From Bactericera cockerelli (taxonomy: Eukaryota > Arthropoda > Insecta > Hemiptera > Triozidae): a stretch of DNA of 64,000 nucleotides. Every line of letters begins with the position of its first letter. Positions within the stretch are counted from its first letter, which is position 1. Where the stretch lies: positions 11,876,391 to 11,940,390 of the forward strand of contig CM044960.1 in NCBI GenBank assembly GCA_024516035.1. Direction: 5' to 3'. A program made the position numbers and the translations under genes. Under the pieces are notes generated by a model. It did no database searches and was not told where the DNA came from. It saw only the letters and a list, made by a program, of their open reading frames with translations. Of this stretch, positions 4,174 to 53,593 are shown piece after piece.

Positions 4174-4178
4174 AAAGA

Positions 4179-4248
<70 letters not shown>

Positions 4249-4952: not shown

Positions 4953-4983
4953 TTATCGAATTGTAGTTTAAGTATATACATAC

Positions 4984-5973: not shown

Positions 5974-6581
5974 CTGAAACAGACATGAGTACCAATATAT
6001 ACTAGTGGATCAAACTGATCAGGTATTCAGGTTAGGCATTAAATTTGGCATTAAAAAATGCCCAATATGGGCTTTCAAATTTGGTAGGGGGCCCAAATTT
6101 TTCAAAATGAAATAGCCCTTAATACCAGACAAAACATAATATCAAAATTTTATTTTTAAGGAATAAAAACTATACAGCAAAATTCCTTCGGCACGTTCAA
6201 AAACTATAGCGAAGGTAATTATTTGAAAAACAGCATTTAATATTTCTCACCTGATTTCATATATTATATTTTGTTTTAAACAAATTAGATAACAGAGAAA
6301 AACGTGTTTTGGCAATGAAAACTGACTATCGAAAATTTTGGTCGATTCCATTATTTTCCTTTCTTAAAGGACAAAGAAATTAAAGAGGTAACACTGGAGT
6401 CAGATTTAAATGAGAATTTTCCGAGGAAAGAATTGAAATAACTAAAAGGAAAGACTTTGAATAACAGTAAATTGGATATTACGAACAACCGTCGAACACT
6501 TGTACTGGCCAACAATGTAAATTTCGATTCGAACCGTCGGAAATTTCAATTTTGTGTTAAAGGAAATAAAGGAAAACTTAC

Positions 6582-6651
6582 TTGCAAATGTTTCCACGTA
6601 CTGCTGTAGTCCCCAGGCAGTTAGAAGGTCTGATACTGATACACTGTCCAT
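6582..6651 (-). CDS. SAM-domain (SAMD3-like) protein, exon 1 with start codon
   Basis: ATG at 6651 starts MDSVSVSDLLTAWGLQQYVE, the first helix of a SAM domain, and the exon ends at a GTAAGT donor in phase 1. Joined to exons 2-4 (5973-4984, 4724-4522, 4038-3358) it gives one 647-aa frame with no stop. A TATA box lies about 130 bp upstream at 6778-6785. The gene lies inside the transposon ends on the same strand as the transposase, so it is either an accessory transposition protein or captured host cargo; SAM domains mediate self- or partner-oligomerisation. Confidence 0.75.
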
Positions 6652-6777
6652 GATGAGTCTTCAAGAATAACCAACTCACACAAGCACTCGACAACAACTA
6701 ATGAGGAAGAACCAAGGAGCACTTGACTTGATAGCAACTAATGAAGTAATGAGACATTGCACCCAGGTTAAGGTGCT

Positions 6778-6984: not shown

Positions 6985-7149
6985 GCAAGATTTTAATTTT
7001 ATCATTAAGCTATTTCATTTTAGACTTTTTAGCAGACAATTCCTCTCCTTCGCCTGCGTCGTCTCCTAAAATTTCACTCACTGACATTACGAACGTACTT
7101 AATACAACCTTGCCTTGTCACACTTAAAAAGAAATGATCGAACCGAACA

Positions 7150-7430
7150 CAACTATCTTTATTGGAAACATAAAACCTTAGCATGAAATCATACAAACCG
7201 CCCTATTTCTATGCTAAAAATTATGCAGACTTTACATAAGTCTATACGAAGAATGTCAATCATGTTAAATTAGCATGAATCTATAGCTCTTATTTTTATG
7301 TTTGTATAGTTTTATACGAACAGCCCTCATTGGCATGAAATGCATGCGTAAAGTAGCATACAATTACTTTATATGCGAAACACGTATGGTTTATGCTAAT
7401 AGTTTAGCATAGCAGTTATGCTAAGACTGT
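7150..7430. repeat. AT-rich field of TTAGCAT/ATGCTAA motifs
   Basis: TTAGCAT and ATGCTAA recur every 20-60 bp on both strands, mixed with TATACGAA. The same vocabulary returns at 9520-9905. No ORF. Possibly the two ends of one larger element. Confidence 0.5.
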
Positions 7431-7432
7431 GA

Positions 7433-7985
7433 GGTATACGAATTTGGCTTGAAGTTATGTCTTCAATTTTCCTGTATGTATAACTCTATGCAAACATTTT
7501 GCGTTGACATAAAAAGCATGCAGAATTAAGTATAAAGTGCCTTTTTGTACGAAAAATGCATGGTTCATGCCACCAAGTTTATGTTAAGCACGAGCGGTGT
7601 ACCAATTTAGCTTGAAGTTATGTCTTCAAATTTCCTGTATGTATAACTTTATGCAAACATTTTGCGTTGACATAAAAAGTATGCGGAAATAGGTGTAAAG
7701 TGCCTTTTTGTACGAAAAATGCATGGTTTATGCGACCGAGATTATGTTAAGCACGAGCGGTGTACCAATTTGGCTTGAAGTTATGTCTTCAAATTTCCTG
7801 TATGTATAACTTTATGCAAACATTTTGCGTTGACATAAAAAGTATGCGGAAATAGGTGTAAAGTGCCTTTTTGTACGAAAAATGCATGGTTTATGCGACC
7901 GAGATTATGCTAAGCACGAGCGGTGTACCAATTTGGCTTGAAGTTATGTCTTCAAATATTTCATTTGTATAACTTTATGTGTGTG
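7433..7985 (+). repeat. 163-bp tandem repeat, about 3.4 copies
   Basis: Units start with GGTGTACCAATTTGGCTTGA at 7433, 7596, 7759 and 7922, exactly 163 bp apart. Copies 2 and 3 are nearly identical; copy 1 is diverged and copy 4 breaks off at the CA microsatellite. Confidence 0.95.
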
Positions 7986-36786: not shown

Positions 36787-36950
36787 TTTCAATTTTTCCC
36801 ACCCATACTACCCGGTCCTAATAAAGCTCATCTACGTGTTACCCTCCCTTTCAAATTTTCCCACCCATACTACCCGGTCCTAATAAAGCTCATCTCTTTC
36901 AAATTTTCCCACCCATACTACCCGGTCCTAATAAAGCTCATCTCTGTGTG
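36787..36950. repeat. Three copies of a pyrimidine-rich repeat
   Basis: CCCACCCATACTACCCGGTC plus CTAATAAAGCTCATCT occurs three times at spacings of about 61 and 49 bp. Confidence 0.9.
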
Positions 36951-37029
36951 TTACCCTCTCTCTTGTGCATGCTGCTCTACTAACGCTCTTCTAGGCGTCT
37001 AACACGCCGATTGTCCTGCTCAAGCGCAT

Positions 37030-37110
37030 CAGGAAAACGGTGAGGAAACCAGTGGACTCGGACGGGGATAGCAGTGATCCTGAGTTCGAATCCCTGGTAA
37101 GGCGCGCAAC
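37030..37110 (+). mobile_element. tRNA-like SINE head
   Basis: GAGTTCGAATCCC is a good B box with an upstream A-box-like stretch; no intact cloverleaf. Confidence 0.4.
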
Positions 37111-38254: not shown

Positions 38255-38490
38255 AACAGAAATTAAACAGCCCCCTCCCCCGTTGTTAGTAGGGAAATGT
38301 CTCACTAACACGAACTGAACAGCCCCCTAATGAGCCTCCCCCTCCCCCGTTGTTAGTAGGGAAATGTCTCCACTAACATGAACTGAACAGCCCCCTAATG
38401 AGCCTCCCCCTCCCCCGTTGTTAGTAGGGAAATGTCTCACTAACATGAACTGAACAGCCCCCTAATGAGCCTTCCCCTCCCCCGTTGTGT
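38255..38490 (+). repeat. 67-bp branch-point/pyrimidine-tract array before Moesin exon A
   Basis: Units start GTTGTTAGTAGGGAAATGTC at 38282, 38349 and 38417 and a diverged one at 38484, which runs directly into the exon A acceptor. Each unit carries CTCACTAAC or CCACTAAC, a good branch-point sequence, and a long CCTCCCCCTCCCCC tract. Confidence 0.9.
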
Positions 38491-38497
38491 CCCCCAG

Positions 38498-38620
38498 GTG
38501 ATGAGCCAAGACGTGAAGAAGGAGAATCCTCTCCAGTTCAAGTTCCGCGCCAAATTCTACCCCGAGGATGTGGTGGAGGAGATTATACAGGACATCACCC
38601 TGCGGCTCTTCTACCTACAG
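38498..38620 (+). CDS. Moe: Moesin (ERM protein), first exon in window (exon A)
   Basis: ERM proteins link cortical F-actin to membrane proteins and PIP2. The eight exons here (38498-38620, 42625-42776, 44590-44820, 45890-46150, 47844-48054, 49146-49292, 50681-50932, 53429-53593) join in one frame of 513 residues; insect Moesin is about 578, so about 64 N-terminal residues (FERM lobe F1) are missing and must be encoded upstream. This exon starts after CCCCCAG, reads [20 protein letters not shown] and ends LRLFYLQ at a GTAAGT donor in phase 0. It covers the F1-F2 junction and start of F2. Exons are GC-rich against an AT-rich background. Confidence 0.96.
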
Positions 38621-38714
38621 GTAAGTGTCGTCCTGTCCCATGTGTCTTGACGAACGAGAAAACTGTCGCTCGTATTCCCTTCTCTGTCGCATGTCGTCTG
38701 GGTGAAAGCGTATA

Positions 38715-38890
38715 ATAAGTCTGGTGGTTAACGCGCTAGTCTGGTAATCCAGGTAGCGTAGGGATTCGTTGGTTTGAATCCCACCCAGTGCATAAATGAG
38801 AGACCCTCTGAGAGTAAGGTGGCAGAAAATGCTTTGGGCATTAACCGCGCCGGGTGGATACCTTCCACTAAAGAGTGTTATTATTAGTAT
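38715..38890 (+). mobile_element. SINE-D copy
   Basis: TGGTTAACGCGCTAGTCTGG, GGTTTGAATCCCACCCAGTG, then AGAAAATGCTTTGGGCATTA and AAAGAGTGTTATTATTA. tRNA-like head, lies in Moesin intron A. Confidence 0.8.
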
Positions 38891-38902
38891 ACACCCGCCC
38901 GA

Positions 38903-39022
38903 CCGCATTAGCTTGATCGATTACACGGTGGACTTATAACCTGGAGGTCGGTGGTTCAAGTCCCGAAGCGAGTAACTAATATCACCACGATTGTGATTAA
39001 CACAAATATGGATAACTTACAG
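38903..39022 (+). mobile_element. SINE-A copy, shortened
   Basis: Sense copy lacking part of the middle (CAAGTCCC is followed at once by GAAGCGAGTAACT). Confidence 0.8.
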
Positions 39023-39204
39023 CCGCCCACAATGAGTGACGAGACATCCTTTGTGACGCGACGTGGTAATGCGAACCCGGGTTCGAACCCCAGAGCCGAC
39101 AAAAATTGTATTCAAAATTTGGTTACAGTTGTTTGTAAGTTGTAAGGAAGACATTACAATTGACTCGTAGCAGCGGCAGAGGGGTGATTACCAGAGAAAG
39201 CCTA

Positions 39205-39370
39205 AGGGCCGAATTATAAAACAAGATTAGATTTAACGTGGACACTATCCCATGACACAATCTCAATTCTGAATTTCAACCAATCACAGCGCTGATTCAT
39301 AATTTGTTCTGAAAGCATGAAAAAAGAAAATTATTGAAGCATTAAATCTCAACTTCCACTAAAGGATCGA
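39205..39370. mobile_element. Interspersed repeat with GCCGAATTATAAAAC end
   Basis: GGCCGAATTATAAAACAAGA, CACTATCCCATGACACAATC and CTGAATTTCAACCAATCACA. Relatives: 46172-46450 and 49475-49555, and a fragment at 25955-26010. Probably a DNA element; class unresolved. Confidence 0.5.
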
Positions 39371-40022
39371 TTACAGTTGAACGTGCATATAACAGAACTG
39401 AAGAGAATGATTTTTTTTTTTTTTTCTCCTATTTATATCCAGGTTTTTCTCATAATCGAAAATTTGAGCTGGAAATACTTCTCTCATATCCAGGTTGGTT
39501 CCCCGAGTATTAGTATTGAGGATAATGTATACTATATACATGTAGCGTATGTGGAGTATCTGCCCTTGTTGAATGACTGGGTGTGATCCGTGTTGTTGAC
39601 AGATAAGCTTAGAGTCGATGGCAAACTTCTCATAATAGAGAAATACTGGGTGAGACAAATAGTGTTTTTTTTGTTTTTTTTTTTTTTTGTTTGTTTGTTT
39701 ACTTTCATCTAATAACATCTGTTGATTTTTAATTTAAGTCTAAAAAAAGTATCGCAAACGCTCACTTTGCAAGAAACATTATTGATTGAGCTGGATTTTA
39801 CTTACCACTTCTCACTTCCTTGTTTATACTGATACCATTCAAAGATTGTATAGATAACCAAATAAATAATCCCCGTCTTCTTCACAGTTTTAACTTTGAA
39901 GACGGGTATACCTTCCTATTATTTTTTATTGTAATAATTTATCTTTGTCAAATAAATGGAAATGTTGTTTAAAAAAAAATTGATCTGGGCTTCTTCTATG
40001 TCTAATTATTAAATATATTTAT

Positions 40023-40110
40023 TGACGGGACTTTTACTATCCATTCGTTGAACACCACACTAGATACCCCCACACTAATGTCAACCAGCCTGCGTTGGGC
40101 GAGAATTGCC
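40023..40110 (-). mobile_element. 5S-SINE body fragment
   Basis: Diverged antisense body (GACGGGACTTTTACTATCCA; AACCAGCCTGCGTTGGGC). Confidence 0.45.
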
Positions 40111-40169
40111 AATTTCGTGTTATTTACTTGAATGATAATAGGAATAATTCTATCAACCGGGATATACTA

Positions 40170-40398
40170 TAGTGAACTGGTAGTCCAATGGTTAATGCGC
40201 TAGTCTGTTGATCCAGGTAGCGTAGGGATCCGTTGGTTCGAAATTTCGAATCTCACCCAGTACATGAATTTTTTCCTCATTAATTTGAGTTTGTGACCAC
40301 ATAATAATAAGACTCTGAGGGTCAAGTGGTAGAAAATGCTTTGAGCATTAACCTCGCCTGGTGGTTACCTACTAAAGAGTGTTATTATTATATTATAC
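40170..40398 (+). mobile_element. SINE-D copy
   Basis: GAACTGGTAGTCCAATGGTT, GGTTCGAAATTTCGAATCTC, then TAGAAAATGCTTTGAGCATT. Its tail is the founder of the 103-bp array that follows. Confidence 0.85.
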
Positions 40399-40915
40399 TC
40401 ACTACTCTGTTGAGACTCTGATGGTTAGGTTGTAGAAAATGCTTTGAGCATTCACCTCGCCTCGTGGTTACCTACTAAAGAGTGTTATTATTATATTATA
40501 CTCACTACTCTGTTGAGACTCTGATGGTTAGGTTGTAGAAAATGCTTTGAGCATTAACCTCGCCTGGTGGTTACCTACTAAAGAGTGTTATTATTATATT
40601 ATACTCACTACTCTGTTGAGACTCTGAGGGTTAGGTTGTAGAAAATGCTTTGAGCATTCACCTCGCCTCGTGGTTACCTACTAAAGAGTGTTATTATTAT
40701 ATTATACTCACTACTCTGTTGAGACTCTGATGGTTAGGTTGTAGAAAATGCTTTGAGCATTAACCTCGCCTGGTGGTTACCTACTAAAGAGTGTTATTAT
40801 TATATTATACTCACTACTCTGTTGAGACTCTGAGGGTTAGGTTGTAGAAAATGCTTTGAGCATTCACCTCGCCTCGTGGTTACCTACTAAAGAGTGTTAT
40901 TATTATTATTTTACT
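40399..40915 (+). repeat. 103-bp higher-order array grown from a SINE-D tail
   Basis: TGAGACTCTG recurs at 40411, 40514, 40617 and on, 103 bp apart, about five copies. Units alternate strictly between GCATTAACCTCGCCTGGTGG and GCATTCACCTCGCCTCGTGG, so the true period of later amplification is a 206-bp dimer. Confidence 0.95.
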
Positions 40916-41044
40916 CACTACTCTGGACACAGAAGAGTAACCTAGGAATCACTGCACGACGGAGGTCGGCTTCAATTGACTTGATTCACCCTGAACAGAG
41001 AGAAGAGCACAGAACTCGTGAATGTGGAGGATAAGATAAGAGTC

Positions 41045-41815
41045 GGGGCGTGCCCTGTCTACTCAGATACCTACCTGTACCTGATGTATACAGAGTGGCT
41101 CATCATACATGTGGTACATGGTATTCTGAGGGCCCCTTGTCTACTCAGATACCTACCTGTACCTGTTGTATACAGAGTGGTTCATCATACATATGGTACA
41201 TAACATAGTATTCTGAGGCCCCTTGTGTACTCAGATACCTACCTGTACCTGTTGTATACAGAGTGGTTCATCATACATGTGGTACATGGTATTCTGAGGG
41301 TCCCTGTCTACTCAGATACCTACCTGTACCTGTTGTATACAGAGTGGTTCATCATACATATGGTACATAACATAGTATTCTGAGGCCCCTTGTGTACTCA
41401 GATACCTACCTGTACCTGTTGTATACAGAGTGGTTCATCGTGCATATGGTACATAGTATTCTGAGGGCCCCTTGTCTACTCAGATACCTACCTGTACCTG
41501 TTGTATACAGAGTGGTTCATCATACATATGGTACATAACATAGTATTCTGAGGCCCCTTGTGTACTCAGATACCTACCTGTACCTGTTGTATACAGAGTG
41601 GTTCATCGTGCATATGGTACATAGTATTCTGAGGGCCCCTTGTCTACTCAGATACCTACCTGTACCTGTTGTATACAGAGTGGTTCATCGTGCATATGGT
41701 ACATAACATAGTATTCTGAGGGCCCCTTGTCTACTCAGATACCTACCTGTACCTGTTGCATACAGAGTGGTTCATTAATTTCATCATACATACGGTACAT
41801 AGTATTCTGAGGGGA
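41045..41815 (+). repeat. 82/86-bp dimeric minisatellite
   Basis: CTACTCAGATACCTACCTGT recurs about nine times. Short units (about 82 bp) and units with the extra CATAA (about 86 bp) tend to alternate, again a dimeric structure. Located in Moesin intron A. Confidence 0.93.
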
Positions 41816-42193
41816 ATCAGAATTTTTTTATGAAAGAAAAAAATCGTTTTTTTTTTTCATTGCTTTTAGAATGACCTACAACCCTTAATTGTAAATAATC
41901 TTGCAGGATAGAAAATAACACAGATACCTACCCGTTGTATACAGAGTATTGTTCATTGTTACTTACGATGAGGGCAATTAAATTCGATCTGTATTTTATG
42001 AAAGAAAATATAGTTACTTCTCATTATTTTCAAGATGACCTACCTATAATACAGTTGATAATTAATTAATGATCATGAATACATGCAAAAACAATTCAAT
42101 TTTTTTGATCCCATGGTGACCAAAATTTCCTGTCAAAATACGTGTTTAATTTCTATTATTCCCTATCACTGATTTTGTCATAAATGGACAGAT

Positions 42194-42374
42194 ATAGGGC
42201 GGAATGAATGGACTTTTATGTTGACTGTGGTCATGAGTCTTGATTTTGCGTATTGTTTTATGTGGGAAAATTAGGGCGAAATTAATAAACGTTTTATAGT
42301 TCTGTGGCGCTATGTCTCGGATTGCGTACTGTTTTAGATGGCAAAAACGTTTGTCTATCAATTTCGCCCCGAAT
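42194..42374. mobile_element. GGGCGGAATTAAT-end MITE cluster
   Basis: An inner copy spans about 42267-42374 (TTAGGGCGAAATTAATAAAC to GTCTATCAATTTCGCCCC) with a partial outer copy starting at 42194. Shares its left flank TTTGTCATAAATGGACAGA with 42440-42460. Confidence 0.7.
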
Positions 42375-42460
42375 GCTTAAGTACAAACTTATGATTTTGA
42401 TTTATCTTTTAATTTCGCCCATAATATTCTCAATAGCTATTTTGTCATAAATGGACAGAA

Positions 42461-42597
42461 TTAAGGGCGGAATTAATAGACGTTTTTGTAATACCTCTGT
42501 GGCGCTAAGTCAAGGATTGCGTACTGTGTAAGATAGGGAAAACCGACACTTACCAACGGCTTAAGTTATTTATGTTGTCTATTAATTCCGCCCTAAA
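42461..42597. mobile_element. GGGCGGAATTAAT-end MITE
   Basis: TTAAGGGCGGAATTAATAGA at the left and GTCTATTAATTCCGCCCTAA at the right are inverted repeats. Body includes GGATTGCGTACTG. Related copies: 42194-42374, 46610-46672 (half) and 60948-61077. Confidence 0.85.
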
Positions 42598-42624
42598 ATT
42601 CGTAACACTTGCTCTCCCCCGCAG

Positions 42625-42776
42625 GTAAAGAACGCCATCCTCTCAGACGAGATCTACTGCCCCCCCGAGACCTCTGTGCTGCTGGCGTCCTACGCCGTGC
42701 AGGCGCGACACGGCGACTTCAACTCCTCCAGCCACGGCCCTGGCTTCCTCGCCAACGACAGACTGCTCCCACAGAG
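42625..42776 (+). CDS. Moe: Moesin exon B (FERM F2)
   Basis: Starts after CCCCCGCAG with [20 protein letters not shown] and continues through FERM F2 to [11 protein letters not shown] plus two bases (AG) of an Arg codon. The donor is GTAATG, weaker than the other donors of this gene. The last 14 bases of the exon are the seed of the 22-bp array that follows. Confidence 0.96.
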
Positions 42777-43790
42777 GTAATGTACTGCTCCCACAGAGGT
42801 AATATACTGCTCCTACAGAGGTAATATACTGCTCGCACAGAGGTAATATACTGCTCCTACAGAGGTAATATACTGCTCGCACAGAGGTAATATACTGCTC
42901 CTACAGAGGTAATATACTGCTCGCACAGAGGTAATATACTGCTCCTACAGAGGTAATATACTGCTCGCACAGAGGTAATATACTGCTCCTACAGAGGTAA
43001 TATACTGCTCCCACAGAGGTAATATACTGCTCCCTCAGAGGTAATACACTGCTCCCACAGTGGTAATATACTGCTCCCTCAGAGGTAATATACTGCTCCC
43101 TCAGAGGTAATATACTGCTCCCACAGAGGTAATATTATACTGCTCCCACAGAGGTAATATACTGCTCCCACAGTGGTAATATTATACTGCTCCCACAGAG
43201 GTAATATACTGCTCGCACAGAGGTAATATACTGCTCCCACAGAGGTAATACACTGCTCCCACAGTGGTAATATACTGCTCCCTCAGAGGTAATATACTGC
43301 TCCCTCAGAGGTAATATACTGCTCCCACAGAGGTAATATTATACTGCTCCCACAGAGGTAATATACTGCTCCCACAGTGGTAATATTATACTGCTCCCAC
43401 AGAGGTAATATACTGCTCGCACAGAGGTAATATACTGCTCCCACAGAGGTAATATACTGCTCCCACAGTGGTAATATTATACTGCTCCCACAGAGGTAAT
43501 ATACTGCTCGCACAGAGGTAATATACTGCTCCCACAGAGGTAATACATGCTCCCACAGAGGTAATATTATACTGCTCCCACAGTGGTAATATTATACTGC
43601 TCCCACAGAGGTAATATACTGCTCGCACAGAGGTAATATACTGCTCCCACAGAGGTAATATACTGCTCCCACAGAGGTAATATACTCCTCCCACGCCTCC
43701 CACAGAGGTAATACTATGCATAAATTGCTTCCACAGAGGTAATATACTGCTCCCACAGTGGTAATATTATGCATTGCATAAATTGCTTCC
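42763..43790 (+). repeat. 22-bp donor-site minisatellite, about 46 copies
   Basis: Unit CTGCTCCCACAGAGGTAATA plus TA is exactly the last 14 bases of exon B and the first 8 of the intron. Variants include CTCGCACAG, CTCCTACAG, CTCCCTCAG, CACAGTGG and an inserted TTA. Each unit holds an AGGT, hence both a potential acceptor (CACAG) and donor (GTAATA). Confidence 0.97.
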
Positions 43791-43879
43791 ACAGAGGCCT
43801 CCTAGCAGGACAATATTATCGGTCCTTTGAATTGCTCTTATCCCAGCTTGATCAGCATATGTGTCTTTTGTAATTGATG

Positions 43880-44589
43880 ACCTCCTCCCCTGGTGAAAGG
43901 AGCACAAGGGCATGTAGATAGTATGCTGATTGTTATCTAATATTCTCTCCCCTAGGGTGATGGATCAGCACAAGATGTCTCCCAGTGAGTGGGAGAGCAG
44001 CATCACAAGGGCATGTAGATAGTATGCTGATTGTTATCTAATATTCTCCCGCAGGGTGATGGATCAGCACAAGATGTCTCTGATTGTTATCTAATATTCT
44101 CCCGCAGGGTGATGGATCAGCACAAGATGTCTCCGAGCGAGTGGGAGAGCAGCATCACGACCTGGTGGAAGGAGCACAAGGGAATGTAGATAGTATGCTG
44201 ACTGTTATCTAATATTCTCCCCCCAGGGTGATGGATCAGCACAAGATGTCTCGTCATTTACATAATATGCTGATTGTTTTATGAATTCTCCTCCAGGGTG
44301 ATGGATCTGCACAAGATGTCTCGTCATTTAGATAATATGCTGATTGTTTTATGAATTCTCCCCTCAGGGTGATGGATCAGTACAAGATGTCTCGTGATTT
44401 AGATAATATGCTGATTGTTTTATGAATTCTCCCCCAGGGTGATGGATCAGCACAAGATGTCTCTGATTGTTATCTAATATTCTCCCCCAGGGTGATGGAT
44501 CAGCACAAGATGTCTCCCAGCGAGTGGGAGAGCAGCATCACAAGGGCATGTAGATAGTATGCTGATTGTTATCTAATATTCTCCCCCAG
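43880..44589 (+). repeat. Eight duplicated acceptor plus exon-start segments before Moesin exon C
   Basis: GGTGATGGATCAGCACAAGA (or a one-base variant) preceded by a pyrimidine tract and AG occurs at 43956, 44055, 44108, 44227, 44297, 44368, 44438 and 44491, before the real one at 44590. Copies carry 25 to 75 bases of exon C. Read in frame, every copy reaches a stop (TAG, TAA or TGA) before the next acceptor. A further eroded exon fragment lies near 43893-43916. Confidence 0.95.
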
Positions 44590-44820
44590 GGTGATGGATC
44601 AGCACAAGATGTCTCCGAGCGAGTGGGAGAGCAGCATCACGACCTGGTGGAAGGAGCACAAGGGCATGCTGAGGGAGGACGCCATGATGGAGTACCTGAA
44701 GATAGCGCAGGACCTGGAGATGTACGGGGTCAACTACTTCGAGATCAAGAACAAGAAGGGGACGGAGCTGTGGCTGGGGGTGGACGCGCTGGGGTTGAAC
44801 ATATACGAGAAGGAAGACAA
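44590..44820 (+). CDS. Moe: Moesin exon C (FERM F2-F3)
   Basis: Completes the Arg codon then reads [20 protein letters not shown] and continues through [20 protein letters not shown] and [11 protein letters not shown]. It covers the end of F2 and most of the first half of F3. I chose 44590 because only this copy continues without a stop into the conserved sequence. Donor GTGAGT, phase 2. Confidence 0.95.
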
Positions 44821-44825
44821 GTGAG

Positions 44826-45015
44826 TGTAACACTGTAACATACAGGGTGCCCATTTTTTCTGTGTGTAACATACAAGGTGCCAATTTTTTCTGAGTGTAA
44901 CATACAAGGTGCCAATTTTTTCTGAGTGTAACATTCAAGGTGCCAATTATTTCTGAGTGTCACATACAAGGTGCCAATTTTTTCTGAGTGTAACATACAA
45001 GGTGCCAATTTTTTT
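44826..45015 (+). repeat. 31-bp array at the exon C donor, six copies
   Basis: Begins six bases into the intron. Unit: GTAACATACAAGGTGCCAAT then TTTTTCTGAGT. Each unit repeats GAGTGTAAC, present at the real donor, and a weaker AAGGTGCC. Confidence 0.93.
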
Positions 45016-45889
45016 CTTATTTGTATATATTTATTTATGTTTTTAACTATTTATAGAATATAAAAAAATGCTTTCCAAGTCTGAGGAACGAGGCATTGTG
45101 CCCATCACAGCTGCTGCATTTCCTCTCTGGATACCCAGAGAAATTTTTTCTTATAGAAATTTTCAGAATCAAACTGTAGGGGGCATTCTAAGACTATATT
45201 AATCTTCGACCATTTTTTTTCTTCTAAAAATGCCGTCGAACGGAGATACGGACTAAATACACTGACTGGCAAATTTAGCGGAACGCAAAGGTTTTTTCTC
45301 GTATAAGGTGTGTATTTCTTGTTGCACCAATGTAATGCAATGTAAATTTTAATGTATTGTAAATTACATTACATTACATTTGTACAATTAAAATTACACA
45401 TTTTAACATAAAATACATAAAACACAGTAAAGTTGTACAAAATCAGAGTGGTATGTGAGGCCTCTCCTTATAAGGAGGCATGTGAACAATCGGTCCAAAC
45501 CCGGGCTAAAGATTAAAATAAAATTAAAACTACTTTAATTTAGATTTAAATTAAATAATTACTTCGATTAAGTCTTAGATGATGCTACAAGTAAGATAAT
45601 AACTCTAATTCATATATCAGTTGCTCGATCGATAAGGTGGTTGATTTGTAAGCTGGATGTTCCTGAGCTATAATCAAATTTTATTAACATTTTCTAGGAC
45701 AATTTTGAATTGAATTGAATACTTTTATTTATTTGTACACAAGAAAGATATTATAAACAATACATCGCCTATAAGCCAAGTCTAACTTCTGAGGAAAGGA
45801 GGAGACAAAATATAAATACAAAAAAAATCTATACCAAAATATAAAACCTGGAGTTTTGAATAATAACTCTATTCACTTTCCCTCGCCAG
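45016..45889. other. Moesin intron C remainder
   Basis: AT-rich; SINE-A fragment at 45612-45665 (GATCGATAAGGTGG). Near 45240-45300 a possible mariner-like end (ACTGACTGGCAAATTTAGCG). No coding sequence. Confidence 0.5.
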
Positions 45890-46150
45890 ACTAACGCCCA
45901 AGATCGGGTTCCCGTGGTCGGAGATCCGCAACATCTCGTTCAACGACCGCAAGTTCATCATCAAGCCCATAGACAAGAAGGCGCCCGACTTTGTGTTCTT
46001 CGCGCCGCGTGTGCGCGTTAACAAGCGGATCCTGGCGCTCTGCATGGGCAATCACGAGTTGTACATGCGGCGCCGCAAGCCAGACACTATTGACGTGCAG
46101 CAGATGAAGGCGCAGGCACGGGAGGAGAAGAACGCGAAGCAGCAGCAGAG
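45890..46150 (+). CDS. Moe: Moesin exon D (FERM F3 to helical domain)
   Basis: After CTCGCCAG it reads [20 protein letters not shown], then the F3 beta strands and [20 protein letters not shown] and the start of the long helix ([17 protein letters not shown]). GTGAGG donor, phase 2. Neither junction is duplicated. Confidence 0.97.
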
Positions 46151-46609
46151 GTGAGGGGCTGAGAATGCCTAAGGGTTGAATTATAAAACGGGTTTTTTTT
46201 TTACTGATCAAGCTCGCTGGGAGGCGAGCGCTCGTCAAGTAGCGCCAGCCAACCGGTCTATATTAACACGAAACAGAGGTTATATGTATTTTGTTTTCGC
46301 CCACTTCCCGCTAACTTTTATATTTATTTACAGAGACGACTTGAAAATCCTTGCTACTATAAAAAAGGATAAGGTTTAATCTAAGTGGGCATTATCCCTT
46401 AACACGCCCTCAAGTCTGAATTTCAAGCAATCACAGGTATGAGTCGAAATGGTTTGCGTTCAAGGCTATGTTATTCAAGTTACTTCAGTGTGGACGGCTT
46501 TGCTGAACATTCAGAATAAAATTGTTCAAATAACATTGTTAGCTAACGATGTTAGCCACATATTTTGTTCGCGAATAATGTTAGGCAACAATGTTCGCTT
46601 AGTGTGAAC

Positions 46610-46672
46610 CCGGCATTATACAATACGCAATCCGAGACTTGATGCTACAGAGTTATGTCCATTAATTCCGCC
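46610..46672. mobile_element. Half copy of the GGGCGGAATTAAT MITE
   Basis: TACGCAATCCGAGACTTGAT to GTCCATTAATTCCGCCCTA; the left half is missing. Confidence 0.65.
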
Positions 46673-46679
46673 CTATTTG

Positions 46680-47500
46680 TTAAAAAATTCTTTAAGCATG
46701 AATCTTACCTTCCACTGAAGGGTCTCTTATTATTATTCAATGTCCCCACGACTCCGCACCCTATTATTATTATTCAATGTCCCCACGACTCCGCACCCTA
46801 TTATTATTATTCAATGTCCCCACGACTCCGCACCCTATTACTATTCAATGTCCCCACAACTCCGCACCCTATTACTATTCAATGTCCCCACAACTCCGCA
46901 CCCTATTATTATTATTCAATGTCCCCACGACTCCGCACCCTATTATTATTCAATGTCCCCACGACTCCGCACCCTATTATTATTATTCAATGTCCCCACG
47001 ACTCCGCACCCTATTATTATTATTCAATGTCCCCACGACTCCGCACCCTATTACTATTCAATGTCCCCACGACTCCGCACCCTATTATTATTATTCAATG
47101 TCCCCACGACTCCGCACCCTATTACTATTCAATGTCCCCACAACTCCGCACCCTATTACTATTCAATGTCCCCACAACTCCGCACCCTATTATTATTATT
47201 CAATGTCCCCACGACTCCGCACCCTATTATTATTCAATGTCCCCACGACTCCACACCCCGCAGGGAAATTCTTTAAGCATGAATCTTACCTTCCACTGAA
47301 GGGTCTCTTATTATTATTCAATTTCCACGACTCCGCACCCCTTAGGGAAATTTTTTAAGCATGAATCTTACCTTCCACTGAAGGGTCTCTTATTATTATT
47401 CAATGTCCCCACGACTCCGCACCCTGCAGGGACATTCTTTAAGCATGAATCTTACCTTCCACTACAGGGTCTCTATTATTCAATGTCCATGACTCCGCAC
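46680..47500 (+). repeat. 31/37-bp array with about 83-bp outer units in Moesin intron D
   Basis: Inner unit TATTCAATGTCCCCACGACT then CCGCACCCTAT, about fifteen copies with (TAT) length variation. It is framed by longer units TTTAAGCATGAATCTTACCT ... CACTGAAGGGTCTC at 46683, 47267, 47355 and about 47438. Some copies end CACACCCCGCAGGGAAA, resembling the exon E acceptor (CAACCCCGCAGGGACAAG). Pro/Thr/His frames here are periodicity artefacts. Confidence 0.92.
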
Positions 47501-47581
47501 GTCATAAGTTATTTTATACTAGCTTAGGAGATGTTATTTTTGTAAATTTAAAATTGTTATGAATAAAAATAAACCAAATTT

Positions 47582-47630
47582 TGTGTTAATTATAATTACT
47601 ATTAAGGATAGTAATTATAATTAACACAAA
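47582..47630. repeat. Perfect 22-bp-arm hairpin
   Basis: TTGTGTTAATTATAATTACT (plus AT) is followed by 5 bases and its exact reverse complement. Confidence 0.9.
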
Positions 47631-47843
47631 AACTAGAACAAGGCTGCATCCCACGACACAAGGACCATACTTCATAGGTGTGGCCCTTAGTGTGAGATGA
47701 CGACAGCCAAAAGAAACTAGCATAAGTTCAATTAAAAATATTATGAATTATGTAAACTGTCATTGTTATATATATATATTTGAACCATTTACTTGTCATG
47801 TATTAAATAAATAAAATAAATAAAAATCAAATCAACCCCGCAG

Positions 47844-48054
47844 GGACAAGCTGCAGCTGGAGATCGCGGCGCGGGAGAAGGCGGAGAAGAAGCACCAGGA
47901 GTCGATAGAGAGACTCAAGGCGCTGGAGATGGAGATGGCGAAGAGGGACCAGGATCTGGTGGAGGCGCAGGAGATGATCCGCCGCCTCGAGGAGCAACTG
48001 AAGCAGCTGCAAGCCGCCAAGGATGAGCTGGAGGCCCGCCAGACAGAACTGCAG
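47844..48054 (+). CDS. Moe: Moesin exon E (coiled coil)
   Basis: Reads [20 protein letters not shown] and [20 protein letters not shown], the charged alpha-helical coiled coil. Acceptor CCCCGCAG, donor GTGAGT, ends in phase 0. Confidence 0.97.
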
Positions 48055-48149
48055 GTGAGTGGTGGGGCGGTCAAGTCTAGAAGAGGTTGAAGGAGGTTTG
48101 TGATTAAGTGTAGGTGATAAACTTGGCGGGTCGGAGCGCTACCGCGTTC

Positions 48150-48424
48150 TTAACACGTTGAATGCCGAGGTAAGTTTTGGACACTTTACCCGTACGCCAC
48201 GTTAATTTATATAGTCACACCATATTATGTGACGTGGCATGCAGAGGTGGTTTTTTAATACTGTACGCCACGCTTCCAAATCATCATTTAAAATACACTT
48301 AATGTCACACCATTCCAGTGTGACACTCATTCAAAGTAGCATCTACTGTCACACATGTGTGACGTGGCGTATAGGTTTAACATTGTATCACACATATAGT
48401 GTGACAAGGCAGTTAATGTGTTAA
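48150..48424. mobile_element. Second TTAA MITE with internal palindromes
   Basis: Ends TTAACACGTTGAATGCC and, inverted, TTAACACATTAACTGCC, each with TTAA. Inside are four palindromes built on GTCACAC/GTGTGAC, including perfect GTCACACATGTGTGAC. Lies in Moesin intron E. Confidence 0.85.
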
Positions 48425-49145
48425 TGAGGAGAAAAAAACTTGAAAGGAAATATATTGTCTCTTACTTTATAACTTCAAAAAGTGTTTCAGTACTAAATAT
48501 TCGCTTACAGAATAAAGACGGTGAATCAATTTTTTTGAAATGGGTCAAGCAAATGTAATTTTTTTTGAGTGAATGACTGATGTTAATAATATTTACACTG
48601 ATATACCAGAAAAAGCCATTTCCGTCATCAAAACCACGAAAAAGGAACGCGAAAGACCTAAAATAAGCCTTTAAAGTTGCCGGGTCGGATATAAACGTAC
48701 CCGCTTTTATCCGATGTGCCGTCATATTTTCACCCAGTTTGATTTTTCAGGAATCGTGACGAGCATTTAGAACTTTAAAAAAAAAAAATATATTTCCAAA
48801 TATCCACTGTTTGACGGACTTTTAACAAGGTTCCTGGGCTTAAAAAATAATAAATAAAATATACCTTGGAAATCATTACGACGAACTCTTTCGATAGAGC
48901 CAGTAAAAAAATATATGCAAGTGATCCATTCCTATTTTATTACTTCCGCGAATATCTATTCATATCGAAAGTATTGTGTGTGTGCATTCTTGTAATTTTC
49001 ATTTATGATATCAGTTAACTATAATTTCTTGAGGAAATTTTTATTTATTTTTTCTATTCTTTTTATGTCCAAATTGCTCAATTCAAAAATACTACTACCT
49101 GCCCAATGGCACCTCTTACAACTCCTCTCCCCCTTTCGCCTCCAG

Positions 49146-49292
49146 AGCATGATGGAGAGACTGGAGGACGCGAAGAACATGGAGGCGGCAGAGCGAGCCA
49201 AGCTGGAGGAGGAGATCCAAGCCAAGCAGGAGGAGGTGCAGCGCATCCAGACAGAGGTTAACACTAAGGACGAGGAGACCAAGAGACTCCAG
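49146..49292 (+). CDS. Moe: Moesin exon F (coiled coil)
   Basis: Reads [20 protein letters not shown] to [11 protein letters not shown], 49 codons, phase 0 at both ends. Donor GTGAGT. Confidence 0.97.
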
Positions 49293-49327
49293 GTGAGTTG
49301 TGGATAGGGTGACCATACGTCCCGCTT

Positions 49328-49416
49328 CAACACCAAGGACGAGGAGACCAAGAGACTCCAGGTGAGTTGTGCAACACTAAGGACGAGGAGACCAAGAGAC
49401 TCCAGGTGAGTTGTGG
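49328..49416 (+). repeat. Two extra copies of the exon F end plus donor
   Basis: AACACYAAGGACGAGGAGAC through CTCCAGGTGAGTTGT is present at 49255-49304 (real), 49329-49370 and 49373-49416. Read-through from the real donor hits a TAG within five codons. Confidence 0.95.
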
Positions 49417-50159
49417 ACCACCCGGTATGCATTGCTGATCAACTGTTGTAAAAAAAAAAATGCGAACAAGGGCCACATTATGAAACAGGATTAAAGTTAA
49501 AGTCGGAGTTTCACAGCACACTATGACCCGAGTTGAGGGATAGTGTCCACTTAGAATGCTTAGAACAGTTCAGATGCTGCCAATAGTTGTCAGGCAATAT
49601 TATAGTACTCTTAGTTGGTAATATATTTAGTTTAATAATATTGATTTGAATGAAAGAAGATTGAGGAATATTTTTCACTATGTACATATTTTTATTTATT
49701 TTTAAGCTGACTATTAACTCTTTGCTGTTAATGATCCATAGCGAGAACGATATACCTAGATGTTGAGTAGATTTTTTAGAAAATATAAAGGTATCCCTTA
49801 CAATTGTTAGTGCGCTCCTTCATACCTTCCGAAGCGCTCGTGTTGACCGAGCCTCTAAAGGGCAAGTCAAAAAATATTCCTTCACCAGTCTTCCTTGTTC
49901 GAAAGATTTATTAGTCTATTAAAACAAATGAAAACGACCATATTTGCCCTTATTGTATGTACCAAGTTTATTTGTTTCGTATCACTGAATATGGTTTTTA
50001 CAATATCTTGAATTAGTATGATGAATCTTGGTTCAGGCTTCATATGCTCGGTTGACCTTGAGGTTTGGATTAGGTATTTGGATTAATAATTTATTATTTT
50101 TTACTCTTGAGGTTTACATACATAGTAATGAGAATTGTCAATTGCTGTTCTTTGATACT

Positions 50160-50680
50160 ATTATTATTTCTAACACTAACATATTCGTGTTTCCCCATCC
50201 CAGGAGGAGGTGGAGAACCTATTATTAATTCTAACACTAACATATCCCTCTTCCCCCCCCCAGGAGGAGGTGGAGAACCTATTATTAATTCTAACACTAA
50301 CATATCCCTCTTCCCCCCCCCAGGAGGAGGTGGAGAACCTATTATTAATTCTAACACTAACATATCCCTCTTCCCCCCCCAGGAGGAGGTGGAGAACCTA
50401 TTATTAATTCTAACACTAACATATCCCTCTTCCCCCCCCAGGAGGAGGTGGAGAACCTATTATTAATTCTAACACTAACATATCCCTCTTCCCCCCCCCA
50501 GGAGGAGGTGGAGAACCTATTATTAATTCTAACACTAACATATCCCTCTTCCCCCCCCAGGAGGAGGTGGAGAACCTATTATTAATTCTAACACTAACAT
50601 ATCCCTCTTCCCCCCCCCAGGAGGAGGTGGAGAACCTATTATTAATTCTAACACTAACATATCCCTCTTCCCCCCCCCAG
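50160..50680 (+). repeat. 59/60-bp acceptor array before Moesin exon G, eight extra copies
   Basis: Each unit has CTAACACTAAC (branch point), CCCTCTTCCCCCCCC, AG and the first 15 bases of exon G (GAGGAGGTGGAGAAC). Acceptors precede 50204, 50264, 50324, 50383, 50442, 50502, 50561 and 50621; the real one precedes 50681. Length varies in the C run. Confidence 0.97.
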
Positions 50681-50932
50681 GAGGAGGTGGAGAACGCCCG
50701 CGCGGCCCGCAAGGCCCAGGACGAGGCCTCTGCGGCCCTCCTGCTCGCCACGGCCACGCCCCCTCACCATCACGTGTTGGAGAACGAGCACGACGAGAAC
50801 GATGACGTCATCATGAACGGGGGCGGGGACCACGAGTCACGTGACCTGGACACGGACGCCACCATCGTGGACCCGGTGGAGGAGCGGAGGACTCTGGCCG
50901 AGAGGAACGAGAGACTGCAGGACCAGCTCAAG
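50681..50932 (+). CDS. Moe: Moesin exon G (linker and start of C-ERMAD)
   Basis: Reads [20 protein letters not shown], a His-containing linker (TPPHHH), an acidic stretch, then [20 protein letters not shown] and [11 protein letters not shown] of the C-terminal ERM-association domain. Phase 0 at both ends; donor GTGAGT. Confidence 0.96.
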
Positions 50933-51308
50933 GTGAGTGGAGAATAATTATTTTTATGTACATAATGTAAGTATTTTTTTTGTTTGTTTTTATGTACTAT
51001 CAGTATGTATTGTATACCTATATATTATATGATTGTACATAAACACACAATAAATATATTCGCATCTGTAATTGCTTGTCTAGCCCTAAAAAGCTGGCAA
51101 GTGTTGATGTTGAAAAAAAAAAAAATATATTCATGCAACAGATCATTAACAATGTAAAAATATAATATACCTACTCTTTTAAAGGAGGCCCTAGCCCATT
51201 AATTTGGGTGCCAATGGAGCTTTATAAATAAATAAATAAATGTCCATTTATATCTAATAAAGCATTGTATAATAATAATAGTGTTTCGAGTTTTTTTTTA
51301 ATTCTGGG

Positions 51309-51540
51309 CGTAATAGTAATAATAATAACACGTTTTAGTGGAAGGTAACCAACTACCAGGCGACGTTAATGCTCAAAGCATTTTATAATAATAATAATAT
51401 CACAGGACCAGCTCAAGGTGAGTGTTGAGAGTTTTTTTTTTTAGTCTTTGGCGTAATGGTAATAATAATAATAACACTTTTAGTGGAAGGTAACCACCAG
51501 GTGAGTTTAATGCTCAAAGCATTTTTAATGCTCAAAGCAC
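51309..51540 (-). mobile_element. SINE-D tail fragments
   Basis: Two antisense tail pieces (GGAAGGTAACCAACTACCAG near 51342 and GGAAGGTAACCACCAGG near 51484) around a duplicated exon G end. Confidence 0.65.
51405..51424 (+). repeat. Duplicated exon G end forming a microexon-like unit
   Basis: CACAG, then GACCAGCTCAAG (codons for DQLK), then GTGAGTG. Identical to the last 12 bases of exon G with its donor, here preceded by an AG. Confidence 0.85.
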
Positions 51541-51541
51541 C

Positions 51542-51650
51542 TTCTTCTTCTTTTACTCTGTCTTATCCCGCTTAAGCAGGGTCGACGTTGTTCAACTTCA
51601 TGGTTAAGGTTGGTTAGTTTTGGCCCTCCTCCTATCCCTCATAATAGTAG
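51542..51650 (-). mobile_element. Non-LTR retrotransposon 3' tail
   Basis: (TTC)n then TTTACTCTGTCTTATCCCGC; antisense copy of 33600-33855. Confidence 0.65.
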
Positions 51651-51659
51651 TAATAGTTT

Positions 51660-51885
51660 TGTGCTTTTGAAGCCCAGAACTAAAATAATAATACTCTTTA
51701 GTGGAAGGTAACCACCAAGCGTGGTTGATGCTCAATGCATTTTATACCACCTAACCCTCAGAGTCTTATTATTATGGGGTCACAAACTCAAATTAATGAG
51801 GAAAAATTCGTGCACTGGGTGGGATTCGAACCAACGGATCCCTACGTACGCTACCTGGATTACTAGAAAATAAATCGGATTGATT
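51660..51885 (-). mobile_element. SINE-D copy
   Basis: Antisense: TGGGTGGGATTCGAACCAAC and ACGCTACCTGGATTACTAG mark the tRNA-like head. Confidence 0.8.
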
Positions 51886-51947
51886 GACGAGAAAGCGCAT
51901 TGTTCTACTGTCCCAACTTGTATGTTTGAAGTAAAATAGTTGCGTCA

Positions 51948-53428
51948 TGACGTTGCTAGATAACTAACTGTGTGTGTGTGTTACCCCCGCCAGATACTTT
52001 GCTAGATAACTAACTGTGTGTGTGTGTTGCCCCCGCCAGATACTTTGCTAGATAACTAACTGTGTGTGTGTGTTGCCCCCGCCAGATACTTTGCTAGATA
52101 ACTAACTGTGTGTGTGTGTTGCCCCCGCCAGATAATTTGCTAGATAACTAACTGTGTGTGTGTGTGTGTTGCCCCCGCCAGATACTTTGCTAGATAACTA
52201 ACTGTGTGTGTGTGTGTGTGTTGCCCCGCCAGATACTTTGCTAGATAACTAACTGTGTGTGTGTGTGTTGCCCCGCCAGATACTTTGCTAGATGGGTCAT
52301 TTTCATTTATCTTGGGCATATCAAGTCCGCAACCTTTCTCCTTTAATAAATGTGAAAATAATAGGGATATATGACTAAAATCTATTTGATCACATAGGAA
52401 ACAATTTTTTTTATAAATTACAATAATAAATTGTCTTTTAAACTAATGTGGAGACTCAAAATTGCCAGTTATGTAAGTAACGTTCATGATATTTTAGGTG
52501 TCCCTTAGTCTAAGATTTTACTGTGTCTGATAGAAAAAAATGCATTTCTCCCCATTATTTTCACCAAAATCCAATATAAATGAGAAAAATACAGTTTATT
52601 TAGGATGTGACCATTAGTTTTCATAAAAATAATAATGTTCACCTCATTCTACAGACGTGTAAAGTTGTGTCCCTACGAAGAAAAAAAAATCTCCGTCATG
52701 AATGTTACCCCCAAAAAAATGTAAACCATTTTGAAAAACCCTTAGAATGAGAAGTTAGCAGCTGCCGCCATTTTGCTTCTTACAGATGACATTGTTTTTG
52801 TTTTGAAATTTCCTGTCAGTTGGATGTTGGATGCAGTACAGTGAGGGACAATGGTGGGTCTAATTTTTTTTGACAAGAACGTTACGCGGTTTTTTAAATA
52901 AATTGTAATGATTCTTTAATATATAATGTATTTCTTTAATTCGTCTGCATGTCCTCTTTCCAATCAAATAATTTTTTTTGTAAAGTGAATATTCTTTTAT
53001 TGAGAAAAGATTGTTTTAGTGGCGTGTTACTCATGAACGTTACCGTCATGAACGTTACCCGTGGTCATGAACGTTACCTGGTACGTTAAGTTTTTGTAAT
53101 TTTGTGTGAAGAGGTAGCTGCTAGAAATATTCTAAATGAAAGCTTTTGCTCAAAGGTATTTGTCTTAGTCTTCTGAGCCTAAAAATTGTTTAGGAAAAAG
53201 GTAACGTTCATGACTTGAAAAAATCCAATTGCCCAAGATAAATGAAAATGACCCAGATAACTAACTGTGTGTGTGTGTTGCCCCCGCCAGATACTTTGCT
53301 AGATAACTAACTGTGTGTGTGTTGCCCCCGCCAGATACTTTGCTAGATAACTAACTGTATGTGTGTGTGTTGCCCCCGCCAGATACTTTGCTAGATAACT
53401 AACTGTGTGTGTGTGTTGCCCCCGCCAG
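51948..53428 (+). repeat. 46-51-bp acceptor array before Moesin exon H, ten extra copies
   Basis: Unit: ATACTTTGCTAGATAACTAA CTG (GT)n TTGCCCCCGCCAG. Decoy exon starts at 51994, 52040, 52086, 52132, 52182, 52233, 52280, 53291, 53335 and 53383; the real one is 53429. CTAACTG is a fair branch point. The array is split by the element at 52294-53254. Each decoy reads to TAG at codon 4. Confidence 0.95.
52294..53254. mobile_element. 961-bp TIR element inserted in the exon H array
   Basis: GGGTCATTTTCATTTATCTT (plus GGGCA) at the left is exactly inverted at 53230-53254. AGAT flanks both sides (52290-52293 and 53255-53258), a likely 4-bp target duplication. TCATGAACGTTACC is repeated at 53030-53080 and occurs inverted elsewhere. 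No coding capacity. Confidence 0.88.
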
Positions 53429-53593
53429 ATGCTGAAGGAGGACCTGGCAGGCACGCGGGACGAGACCAAGGAGACAGCCATGGACAAGATCCACCGCGAG
53501 AATGTGAAGCAGGGCCGGGACAAGTACAAGACGCTGCGGGAGATACGCAAGGGCAACACCAAGCGGCGCGTCGACCAGTTCGAGAACATGTAA
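53429..53593 (+). CDS. Moe: Moesin last exon H (C-ERMAD, stop)
   Basis: Reads [20 protein letters not shown] to [13 protein letters not shown] and TAA at 53591. It holds the F-actin-binding tail and the conserved regulatory threonine in [10 protein letters not shown] (codon 53531-53533), the site whose phosphorylation opens ERM proteins. Essentially identical to other insect Moesins over the last 25 residues. Confidence 0.98.

Follow-up and report, generated by a model that had tools for sequence, protein, structure and literature searches.

Intron gain through duplication of a splice border is an old model for which recent cases are few, and in 2007 Zhuo et al. reportedly described human alternatively spliced introns that had arisen from tandem arrays. 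In the potato RdRp gene, a tandem duplication crossing an exon border carries the branch site, the pyrimidine tract and the 3' splice site, with a functional site coming from the second copy; the consulted part of that report also describes proven recent intron gains as few (Ma et al., 2016; PMC4974935). In the Rogers model, as presented with Drosophila cases in the consulted part of its source (PMC2891723), an exonic AGGT is duplicated inside coding sequence and gives rise to a new intron. A study of induced breaks and cell genomes, known here from its abstract, describes how short direct tandem duplications form in general (2021; PMC8355091). In the literature searched, which excluded most subscription journals, we found no published account of border arrays spread over the genes of psyllids or other insects, and the word "tandem" is absent from the consulted part of a paper on three psyllid assemblies (PMC12203342).

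We mapped 17 junctions of the moesin gene in the 565 Mb assembly of the psyllid Bactericera cockerelli; its spliced translation shares 81-95% identity with the 120 proteins listed among 5174 matches. Positions are those of the window, the whole 64,000-nucleotide stretch of DNA that was analysed. Exon A is preceded, at a distance of about 50 kb, by the canonical first coding exon, neither border of which has a copy. The preliminary description reported tandem arrays spanning or abutting the splice junctions of this gene, and our analysis bears this out, with five of the 17 junctions inside a local tandem duplication and two more abutting one. It was also correct in describing the junctions of exons D and E as clean, with no local copy on either side of both exons, and in assigning one extra displaced copy to the G donor, an exact match 485 bp downstream. 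The A donor, the B acceptor, the F acceptor and the Z donor likewise lack a local copy.

Positions in the window of moesin exons, border arrays and other repeats; copy counts include the true junction copy
Feature	Position	Strand	Remarks
Exon Z (alternative 5' exon)	about 36990..37098	+	matches N-terminus of Diaphorina citri M8J75_000548; acceptor position inferred
Exon A	38498..38620	+	
Exon B	42625..42776	+	
Exon C	44590..44820	+	
Exon D	45890..46150	+	acceptor and donor clean
Exon E	47844..48054	+	acceptor and donor clean
Exon F	49146..49292	+	
Exon G	50681..50932	+	
Exon H, with stop codon	53429..53593	+	
48-bp array near Z acceptor	36848..36945	+	ends 44 bp before acceptor
67-bp array abutting A acceptor	38271..38488	+	ends 9 bp upstream of splice site
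103-bp array deep in intron A-B, off junctions	40310..40925	+	SINE-like 3' end by eye
82-87-bp array deep in intron A-B, off junctions	41056..41813	+	
B donor array, spanning	42762..43767	+	44 GGTAAT copies, in most cases 22 bp apart (range 21-31)
C acceptor array	43889..44668	+	9 copies of acceptor with 25-84 nt of exon C; spacing 53-119
31-bp array abutting C donor	44834..45014	+	starts 13 bp downstream of splice site
35-82-bp array in intron D-E, off junctions	46726..47480	+	
F donor copies	49259..49417	+	3 copies, ~34 nt exon and 10 nt intron; intervals of 69 and 44 bp
G acceptor array, spanning	50158..50695	+	9 copies, 59/60 bp (~45 nt intron and 15 nt exon)
G donor displaced copy	51403..51424	+	22-nt exact copy (15 exon and 7 intron)
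H acceptor array, first half	51953..52293	+	46-51 bp unit
Element splitting H array	52294..53254	+	perfect 25-bp terminal inverted repeats; AGAT on both sides
H acceptor array, second half	53255..53430	+	enters exon H by 2-5 nt

The junction units, 22-67 bp long as called by Tandem Repeats Finder, are arranged head to tail as in a minisatellite (unit of about 10-100 bp), with the C acceptor and F donor arrays only partly regular; about 25 nt of other DNA lies between the first and second copies at the F donor. The interrupted array at the H acceptor holds 11 copies in total, spaced 44-51 bp within each half. Because the units differ between junctions, the arrays record several independent events, as had been proposed.

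The placement of the arrays was compared with chance in three genes: moesin, clathrin heavy chain, which was picked before its repeats were seen, and merlin. For moesin, one unit per array was placed randomly in the gene with its arrays collapsed. Five of the 11 arrays span a junction where 1.12 are expected (P=0.0019), and seven lie within 15 bp of one where 1.42 are expected (P=0.0001); with mobile-looking stretches also removed, the corresponding values are P=0.0067 and P=0.0002. A looser, automatic definition of an array gives five of 16 spanning against 1.48 expected (P=0.012). In clathrin heavy chain 13 of 34 arrays span a junction, 2.10 being expected, a number reached in none of 50,000 simulations (P<2e-5); GC-matched placement lowers the expectation to 1.73 and is again never matched in 50,000 simulations, and recent copies taken by themselves give eight of 23 against 1.4 (P=4e-5). 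Merlin has two donor arrays, and its excess is non-significant for all arrays (2/9 against 0.79 expected, P=0.18) and for recent copies (2/5, P=0.07). The enrichment elsewhere, for which the preliminary description proposed a test, is thus present in clathrin heavy chain and not significant in merlin alone, a partial version of the scan it had in mind.

These results bear on the reading that this is a plain minisatellite-prone genome, in which moesin was noticed as an extreme and border placement reflects chance or composition. Arrays do make up 32% of the moesin region against 7-13% of the rest of the window, and a local copy was found for only four of 17 symmetric junction 40-mers, compared with 36.8% of 2175 moesin intron positions, so that junction sequence is repeated no more often than intron sequence; merlin too fits such a genome. 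However, the intron figure is inflated, since every original base enters the count as many times as it has copies, and coverage therefore overstates the chance expectation; we dropped this comparison as the main test since it counts every array copy. The border-indifferent placement of a neutral minisatellite was found neither in clathrin heavy chain, which had not been selected for repeats, nor in moesin under the looser definition. Border placement exceeds the plain minisatellite expectation in both genes, as had been argued, and we consider that reading unlikely. The motif AGGT[AG] was seen in 12 of the 31 array units, where 5.3 would be expected (P=0.002); as a driver of all arrays it was rejected and is kept as a lead only, since it was picked post hoc and several of the units that bear it are themselves junction arrays. 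Five minus-strand ORFs at 310-6660 were considered as a control within the window. Four have no Pfam match, the fifth has three matches below the curated cut-offs, and a search with one of the five found no homologs; they are therefore unusable as a junction control.

Consideration of the shape and direction of the copies gives insight into how they arose. Within 6 kb, moesin, clathrin heavy chain, its second copy and merlin hold 261 exon-containing copies, of which 253 cross a junction; seven of the remaining eight begin or terminate no more than 18 nt from one. Not one is inverted, with a single inverted match farther off, and none crosses both ends of an exon; all lie in the adjoining intron, acceptor copies upstream and donor copies downstream. 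Exon sequence outweighs intron sequence in length at 20 of the 26 junctions (P=0.009), including 13 of 15 donors, in a tally that takes lengths at B and H from the array unit and the others from alignment, and that omits six second-copy borders shared with the first copy, merlin acc6 and clathrin don1 (intron-heavy). Nine of 15 donors contribute 3-14 nt of intron. For four acceptors with tandem copies, namely G and H of moesin and acc5 and acc21 of clathrin, the intron part is about 41-56 nt, acc21 having only 12 nt in a tighter alignment. The intron parts of donors and tandem acceptors roughly match the needs of a usable splice site. Some displaced acceptor copies have only 4-20 nt of intron, and several copies sit at distances from hundreds of bp up to 2.2 kb. 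In eight gaps that separate displaced copies, 0-69% of the sequence matches other loci compared, and mobile DNA as the filler therefore holds only partly; an insert of 376 bp in clathrin's second copy matched nothing but itself among these loci.

Mutation tied to splicing or transcription could target the borders directly, through R-loops at 5' splice sites or with spliceosome-bound pre-mRNA as a template in cis. The exclusively sense orientation of the local copies would suit such a process, but ordinary tandem duplication also yields direct orientation. Similarly, the many donor copies that end 3-14 nt into the intron and the several acceptor copies that reach about 40 nt upstream would come close to the extent of splice-site recognition, or the footprint of the spliceosome, yet a filter for working splice sites gives the same extents, and 21 of the 34 clathrin arrays span no junction at all. 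We regard targeted mutation as rather unlikely. Lariat-templated repair, one form suggested in the preliminary description, is not supported because the copies contain exon contiguous with intron.

Selection for extra splice sites, as decoys or back-up, might instead retain the duplications. The copies retain the splice dinucleotide in 567 of 574 cells, compared with 94.3% at other positions, but such cell counts exaggerate retention because the copies share ancestry. When variants are counted as distinct events the signal is gone, with two at donor +1/+2 (about five expected) and seven at acceptor -2/-1 (about five expected). Some units could be read in frame, namely the 147-bp unit of Diaphorina citri and the last two upstream copies of the moesin G acceptor, whereas the other moesin copies at B, F and H and most of those at G would shift the frame or hit a stop (at B, as read from the sequence). 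The earlier proposal of decoy sites is not supported, and selection of this kind seems quite unlikely.

A second clathrin copy, near-identical and inverted, lies about 0.26 Mb away, and blocks outside the arrays are about 96-100% alike between the two copies, which could be paralogs or haplotypes. Six of ten shared borders differ in copy number, as minisatellites do, with pairs such as 11 and 1, 6 and 13, and 5 and 20, and at one border the duplication is confined to a single gene copy. The border arrays are young, because two near-identical gene copies differ so strongly in array size. The nearby inverted copy could also point to an artefact of assembly, in which divergent haplotypes are joined into false tandem duplications; these have been reported in the D. 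citri v3.0 assembly, according to the consulted part of that source (PMC11659978). However, joining of haplotypes is not expected to produce units of 22-150 bp in many internally different copies that end at splice borders, and the predicted moesin of D. citri has its own, differently built 147-bp array at the same G acceptor border, which makes an artefact very improbable.

We propose that tandem duplication combined with a filter imposed by splicing is the best explanation of the border arrays, at a probability of about 0.5. Short tandem duplications, of some 20-150 bp and sometimes interrupted by other DNA, would arise no less readily in exons than in introns. Breakpoint densities are consistent with this rate, which we infer, at 20 in 7.2 kb of exon and 98 in 69.2 kb of intron (2.78 against 1.42 per kb, P=0.010); exon and intron are near equal in merlin (1.34 and 1.13 per kb) and in moesin (3.03 and 2.72 per kb), and the hotter exons therefore rest on clathrin. 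A duplication wholly within an exon would break the protein and be lost, while one that crosses a border with a complete splice site would survive, because splicing hides the extra copy: the exon-proximal site would presumably still be used and the copy be treated as intron. Slippage or unequal exchange could later expand such copies into arrays of up to dozens, and introns would lengthen by accreting copies of their own borders. With a filter and nothing else, duplications at junctions should survive equally well, not better, and therefore an as yet unexplained difference in rate is still needed. The distant copies, the short intron parts of some displaced acceptors, the non-significance of merlin and the coverage comparison also weigh against the proposal.

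Taken together, our data give roughly even odds that exon borders in psyllids form a persistent hot spot of recent tandem duplication, with more than a quarter of the junctions self-copied in some genes, introns accreting their own borders and splicing shielding the exons. If true, introns could lengthen in this way throughout the genome, and the duplications would supply raw material for new introns. Border duplications that are frequent, young and still changing would allow intron lengthening to be watched directly, and such a genome would reveal how the spliceosome chooses among many similar sites and how splicing conceals coding mutations. The idea that introns originate or grow by border duplication is now open to direct test in a psyllid genome. 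The D. citri moesin gene model seems to hold its array as 196 extra residues (four 49-residue units); annotators should be aware that a border array can seemingly become extra protein.

Introners, in which a similar intron occurs at many unrelated sites, were not found among 84 junction windows of the three genes; there were 19 cross matches (several per pair), of 13-39 nt among the 15 listed, the longer being TATTC-type pyrimidine tracts of a few acceptors. The abstract of the 2021 study is silent on exon borders (PMC8355091). As in potato RdRp, so far as the consulted part of that report describes it, the psyllid segments cross the intron-exon border with splice signals intact; that case comprises one gene and one 3' border duplication with a new intron confirmed by RNA-seq (PMC4974935), whereas the psyllid arrays, known here from DNA alone, involve donors and acceptors, many borders and up to dozens of copies. 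As in the consulted account of the Rogers model, sequence with AG/GT signals is duplicated beside coding DNA (PMC2891723). However, that model takes a segment wholly within an exon, whereas 253 of the 261 nearby exon copies run across a junction that already exists; intron gain in action, as first suggested, is not borne out, and the psyllid duplications instead take existing borders and lengthen existing introns.

The gene in the window, which is plus-strand DNA at 11876391-11940390 of contig CM044960.1 in an assembly of 565,017,811 bases in 1032 contigs, encodes an insect moesin. Once exons A-H are spliced and translated, 5174 proteins match the product; among the 120 of these that were listed the best identity, 95% across 79% of the query, is with Diaphorina citri M8J75_000548, followed by other psyllids (Cacopsylla, 91%; Cyamophila, 90%). 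The canonical first coding exon is found about 50 kb upstream of exon A, with no local copies at either of its borders. When the border copies were aligned in register, five of the seven junctions previously proposed to carry tandem arrays were found to be spanned (B donor, C, G and H acceptors, and F donor), while the other two are merely abutted, the A acceptor array ending 9 bp from the splice site and the C donor array lying 13 bp off it. The displaced copy described for the G donor is present, and the junctions of D and E are clean as reported, with no local copy at either side. Ten borders in all are clean: both of D, both of E, the B and F acceptors, the A and Z donors, and the two of the upstream first coding exon; an array lies 44 bp from the Z acceptor.

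Features of the moesin region. Positions are counted within the window; array copy numbers include the true copy.
Feature	Position	Copies	Details
Exon Z, additional 5' moesin exon	~36990-37098
B donor array		44	22-bp unit
C acceptor array		9
F donor array		3
G acceptor array		9
H acceptor array		11
G donor			single displaced copy, 22 nt, exact
Large deep-intron array	40310-40925
Large deep-intron array	41056-41813
Large deep-intron array	46726-47480
Element splitting H acceptor array	52294-53254		perfect 25-bp inverted terminal repeats (GGGTCATTTTCATTTATCTTGGGCA); AGAT at either side

By eye, the first and third of the deep-intron arrays look as if they had been seeded on the tails of tRNA-derived SINEs, which may be another site prone to duplication; similar stretches occur near 38700-38890 and 51290-51870. 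The AGAT flanking the element in the H acceptor array is likely a 4-bp target duplication, and the element arrived after part of the array had grown. AGGT[AG] is enriched in the array units of the window (12/31 vs 5.3 expected from same-length background, P=0.002), and also occurs in arrays with no known junction (7433, 8497, 12036 and 22081). On the minus strand, 310-6660 holds long ORFs of 649, 351, 226 and 168 aa, possibly an intron-bearing mobile element; Pfam gave matches for the 168-aa ORF only, every one below the cut-off, and no homologs of the 351-aa ORF were found.

The position of the arrays was compared with chance by dropping one unit per array at random in the gene. In the uncollapsed moesin gene 5/11 arrays span a junction (0.67 expected) and 7/11 lie within 15 bp of one (0.85 expected; the observed count was reached in 0/20,000 trials). 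With the arrays collapsed the expectations are 1.12 (P=0.0019) and 1.42 (P=0.0001), and with mobile-looking stretches also removed 1.38 (P=0.0067) and 1.75 (P=0.0002). An automatic self-alignment definition, with the same rule for every gene, gives 5/16 spanning arrays vs 1.48 expected (P=0.012). These P values are optimistic, because moesin was picked for its striking look. A coverage test showed no junction excess in moesin, where a copy at 75% identity occurs nearby for 4/17 of the junction 40-mers vs 36.8% of intron positions (9.4% of positions outside moesin); we take the count of events to be the fairer test, since coverage counts every original base once per copy.

Clathrin, a gene independent of moesin, shows the enrichment too. 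The heavy chain was picked for being long and made of many exons, and the human sequence served to locate it. It was mapped over 24 introns, with one further unresolved intron left out; the search did not recover the 3' end past residue 1542 of this copy, and human protein fragments match many additional partial exon copies. Here 13/48 junctions are spanned and 4/48 abutted, and 13/34 arrays span a junction vs 2.10 expected, the observed count being reached in 0/50,000 simulations and again in 0/50,000 with GC-matched placement (1.73 expected); GC content does not account for the excess in clathrin or moesin. Recent copies alone (93% identity) give 8/23 vs 1.4 expected (P=4e-5), and when aligned more tightly, within 3.5 kb, 16/48 junctions have copies (donors 9/24, acceptors 7/24). 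Merlin, reached via a paralog match, has donor arrays of 19 and 13 copies at 2/20 mapped junctions; under the automatic rule one of them also covers that exon's acceptor. Alone, merlin is not significant (2/9 arrays vs 0.79 expected, P=0.18; recent only 2/5, P=0.07). TATTC-type repeats are common to the pyrimidine tracts of clathrin acceptors 8365, 31602 and 60269 and merlin acceptor 45208 (joined coordinates).

About 0.26 Mb from the first clathrin copy is a second one, inverted and partial (contig C8, 24671162-24707026), in which residues beyond 1542 are present. It has 8/14 junctions spanned, a count not independent of the first copy, with blocks outside the arrays about 96-100% identical between the two. 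Of the ten shared borders, four have equal copy numbers (two in each gene copy at one border, one in each at the other three) and six have unequal ones (11 vs 1, 2 vs 3, 6 vs 13, 2 vs 3, 5 vs 20 and 1 vs 2). The arrays are young because their copy numbers differ between near-identical gene copies, and this holds whether these are paralogs or haplotypes, through a real duplication or a misplaced haplotype. One acceptor border occurs once in the first gene copy and twice in the second, where 376 bp of new DNA (7120-7496 of the second copy, joined reverse strand) separate two 103-bp direct repeats, each of 12 nt of intron and 91 nt of exon; this looks like an exon insertion with a very long target duplication, the exon being kept whole downstream.

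The anatomy of the copies bears on their origin. Across moesin, both clathrin copies and merlin, we collected 261 copies that lie no more than 6 kb away and include 12 nt of exon or more; the H array falls outside this set because it has only 2-5 nt of exon per copy. The junction is crossed by 253/261; of the eight that fail this strict rule, seven have one end no more than 18 nt from a junction and the eighth is part of the moesin C array. Every copy is direct (one inverted match lies farther away) and in the adjoining intron, upstream for acceptors and downstream for donors, and no copy takes in an exon from end to end. Lariat-templated repair, raised in the preliminary description, and spliced mRNA are ruled out as sources, as the copies hold exon contiguous with intron. 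Within the three genes compared, the units do not represent a mobile sequence that they have in common. The exon part exceeds the intron part at 20/26 junctions in a tally with sign test (B and H by array units; six borders that the second clathrin copy shares with the first, merlin acc6 and clathrin don1 were not counted). In 9/15 donors the copied intron amounts to 3-14 nt, and in four tandem acceptors (moesin G and H, clathrin acc5 and acc21, the last only 12 in the tighter alignment) to about 41-56 nt, about the need of a branch site and pyrimidine tract; in some displaced acceptor copies it is only 4-20 nt. These extents roughly resemble the survivors of a working-splice-site filter.

We propose that small tandem duplications, which fill-in at breaks with 3' overhangs can yield (PMC8355091), would strike exons no less often than introns. 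Pooled over three genes, breakpoints per kb are 2.78 in exons vs 1.42 in introns (P=0.010), a difference that stems from clathrin. Duplications inside exons would be lost, those carrying a whole splice site would do no harm, as the exon-proximal site would remain functional, and the surviving border duplications would later expand into arrays. Among the moesin B, F, G and H copies checked, splicing at the other F and H copies or at most G copies would give a stop or frame shift, and read-through at B meets an immediate TAA in the sequence. At G, the last two upstream acceptor copies (50561-50680) are open and in frame with exon G (+60, +120 nt), and if used could add 20 or 40 residues. Selection for decoy sites, also suggested earlier, is unsupported once variants are counted as events.

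The G acceptor of D. citri also seems, from its predicted protein, to bear an array, with a 147-bp unit unlike the 60-bp unit of B. cockerelli. The predicted moesin (M8J75_000548) has four full copies of a 49-residue unit, each the start of exon G and then about 18 residues resembling the intron tail, followed by a fifth copy of the exon G start. Other psyllid moesins join exon F straight to exon G, and each of the other 32 matches to the repeat region covers at most 39% of it. From their position and these other moesins, we infer that intron sequence, translated as if coding, supplies the additional residues; the public model, with its in-frame exon-plus-intron repeats, is probably an annotation error due to a border array.

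Intron gain in action had been suggested as a possibility for the moesin locus; no new intron was demonstrated. In potato RdRp, one tandem duplication across a 3' border created a new intron (PMC4974935); border-crossing tandem duplication is an event class already known. As far as an incomplete literature search tells, the novelty here lies in how often, and on how large a scale, it occurs in an animal genome: the potato case is a single event at a 3' border, whereas in B. cockerelli both border types are affected, repeatedly and with large arrays.
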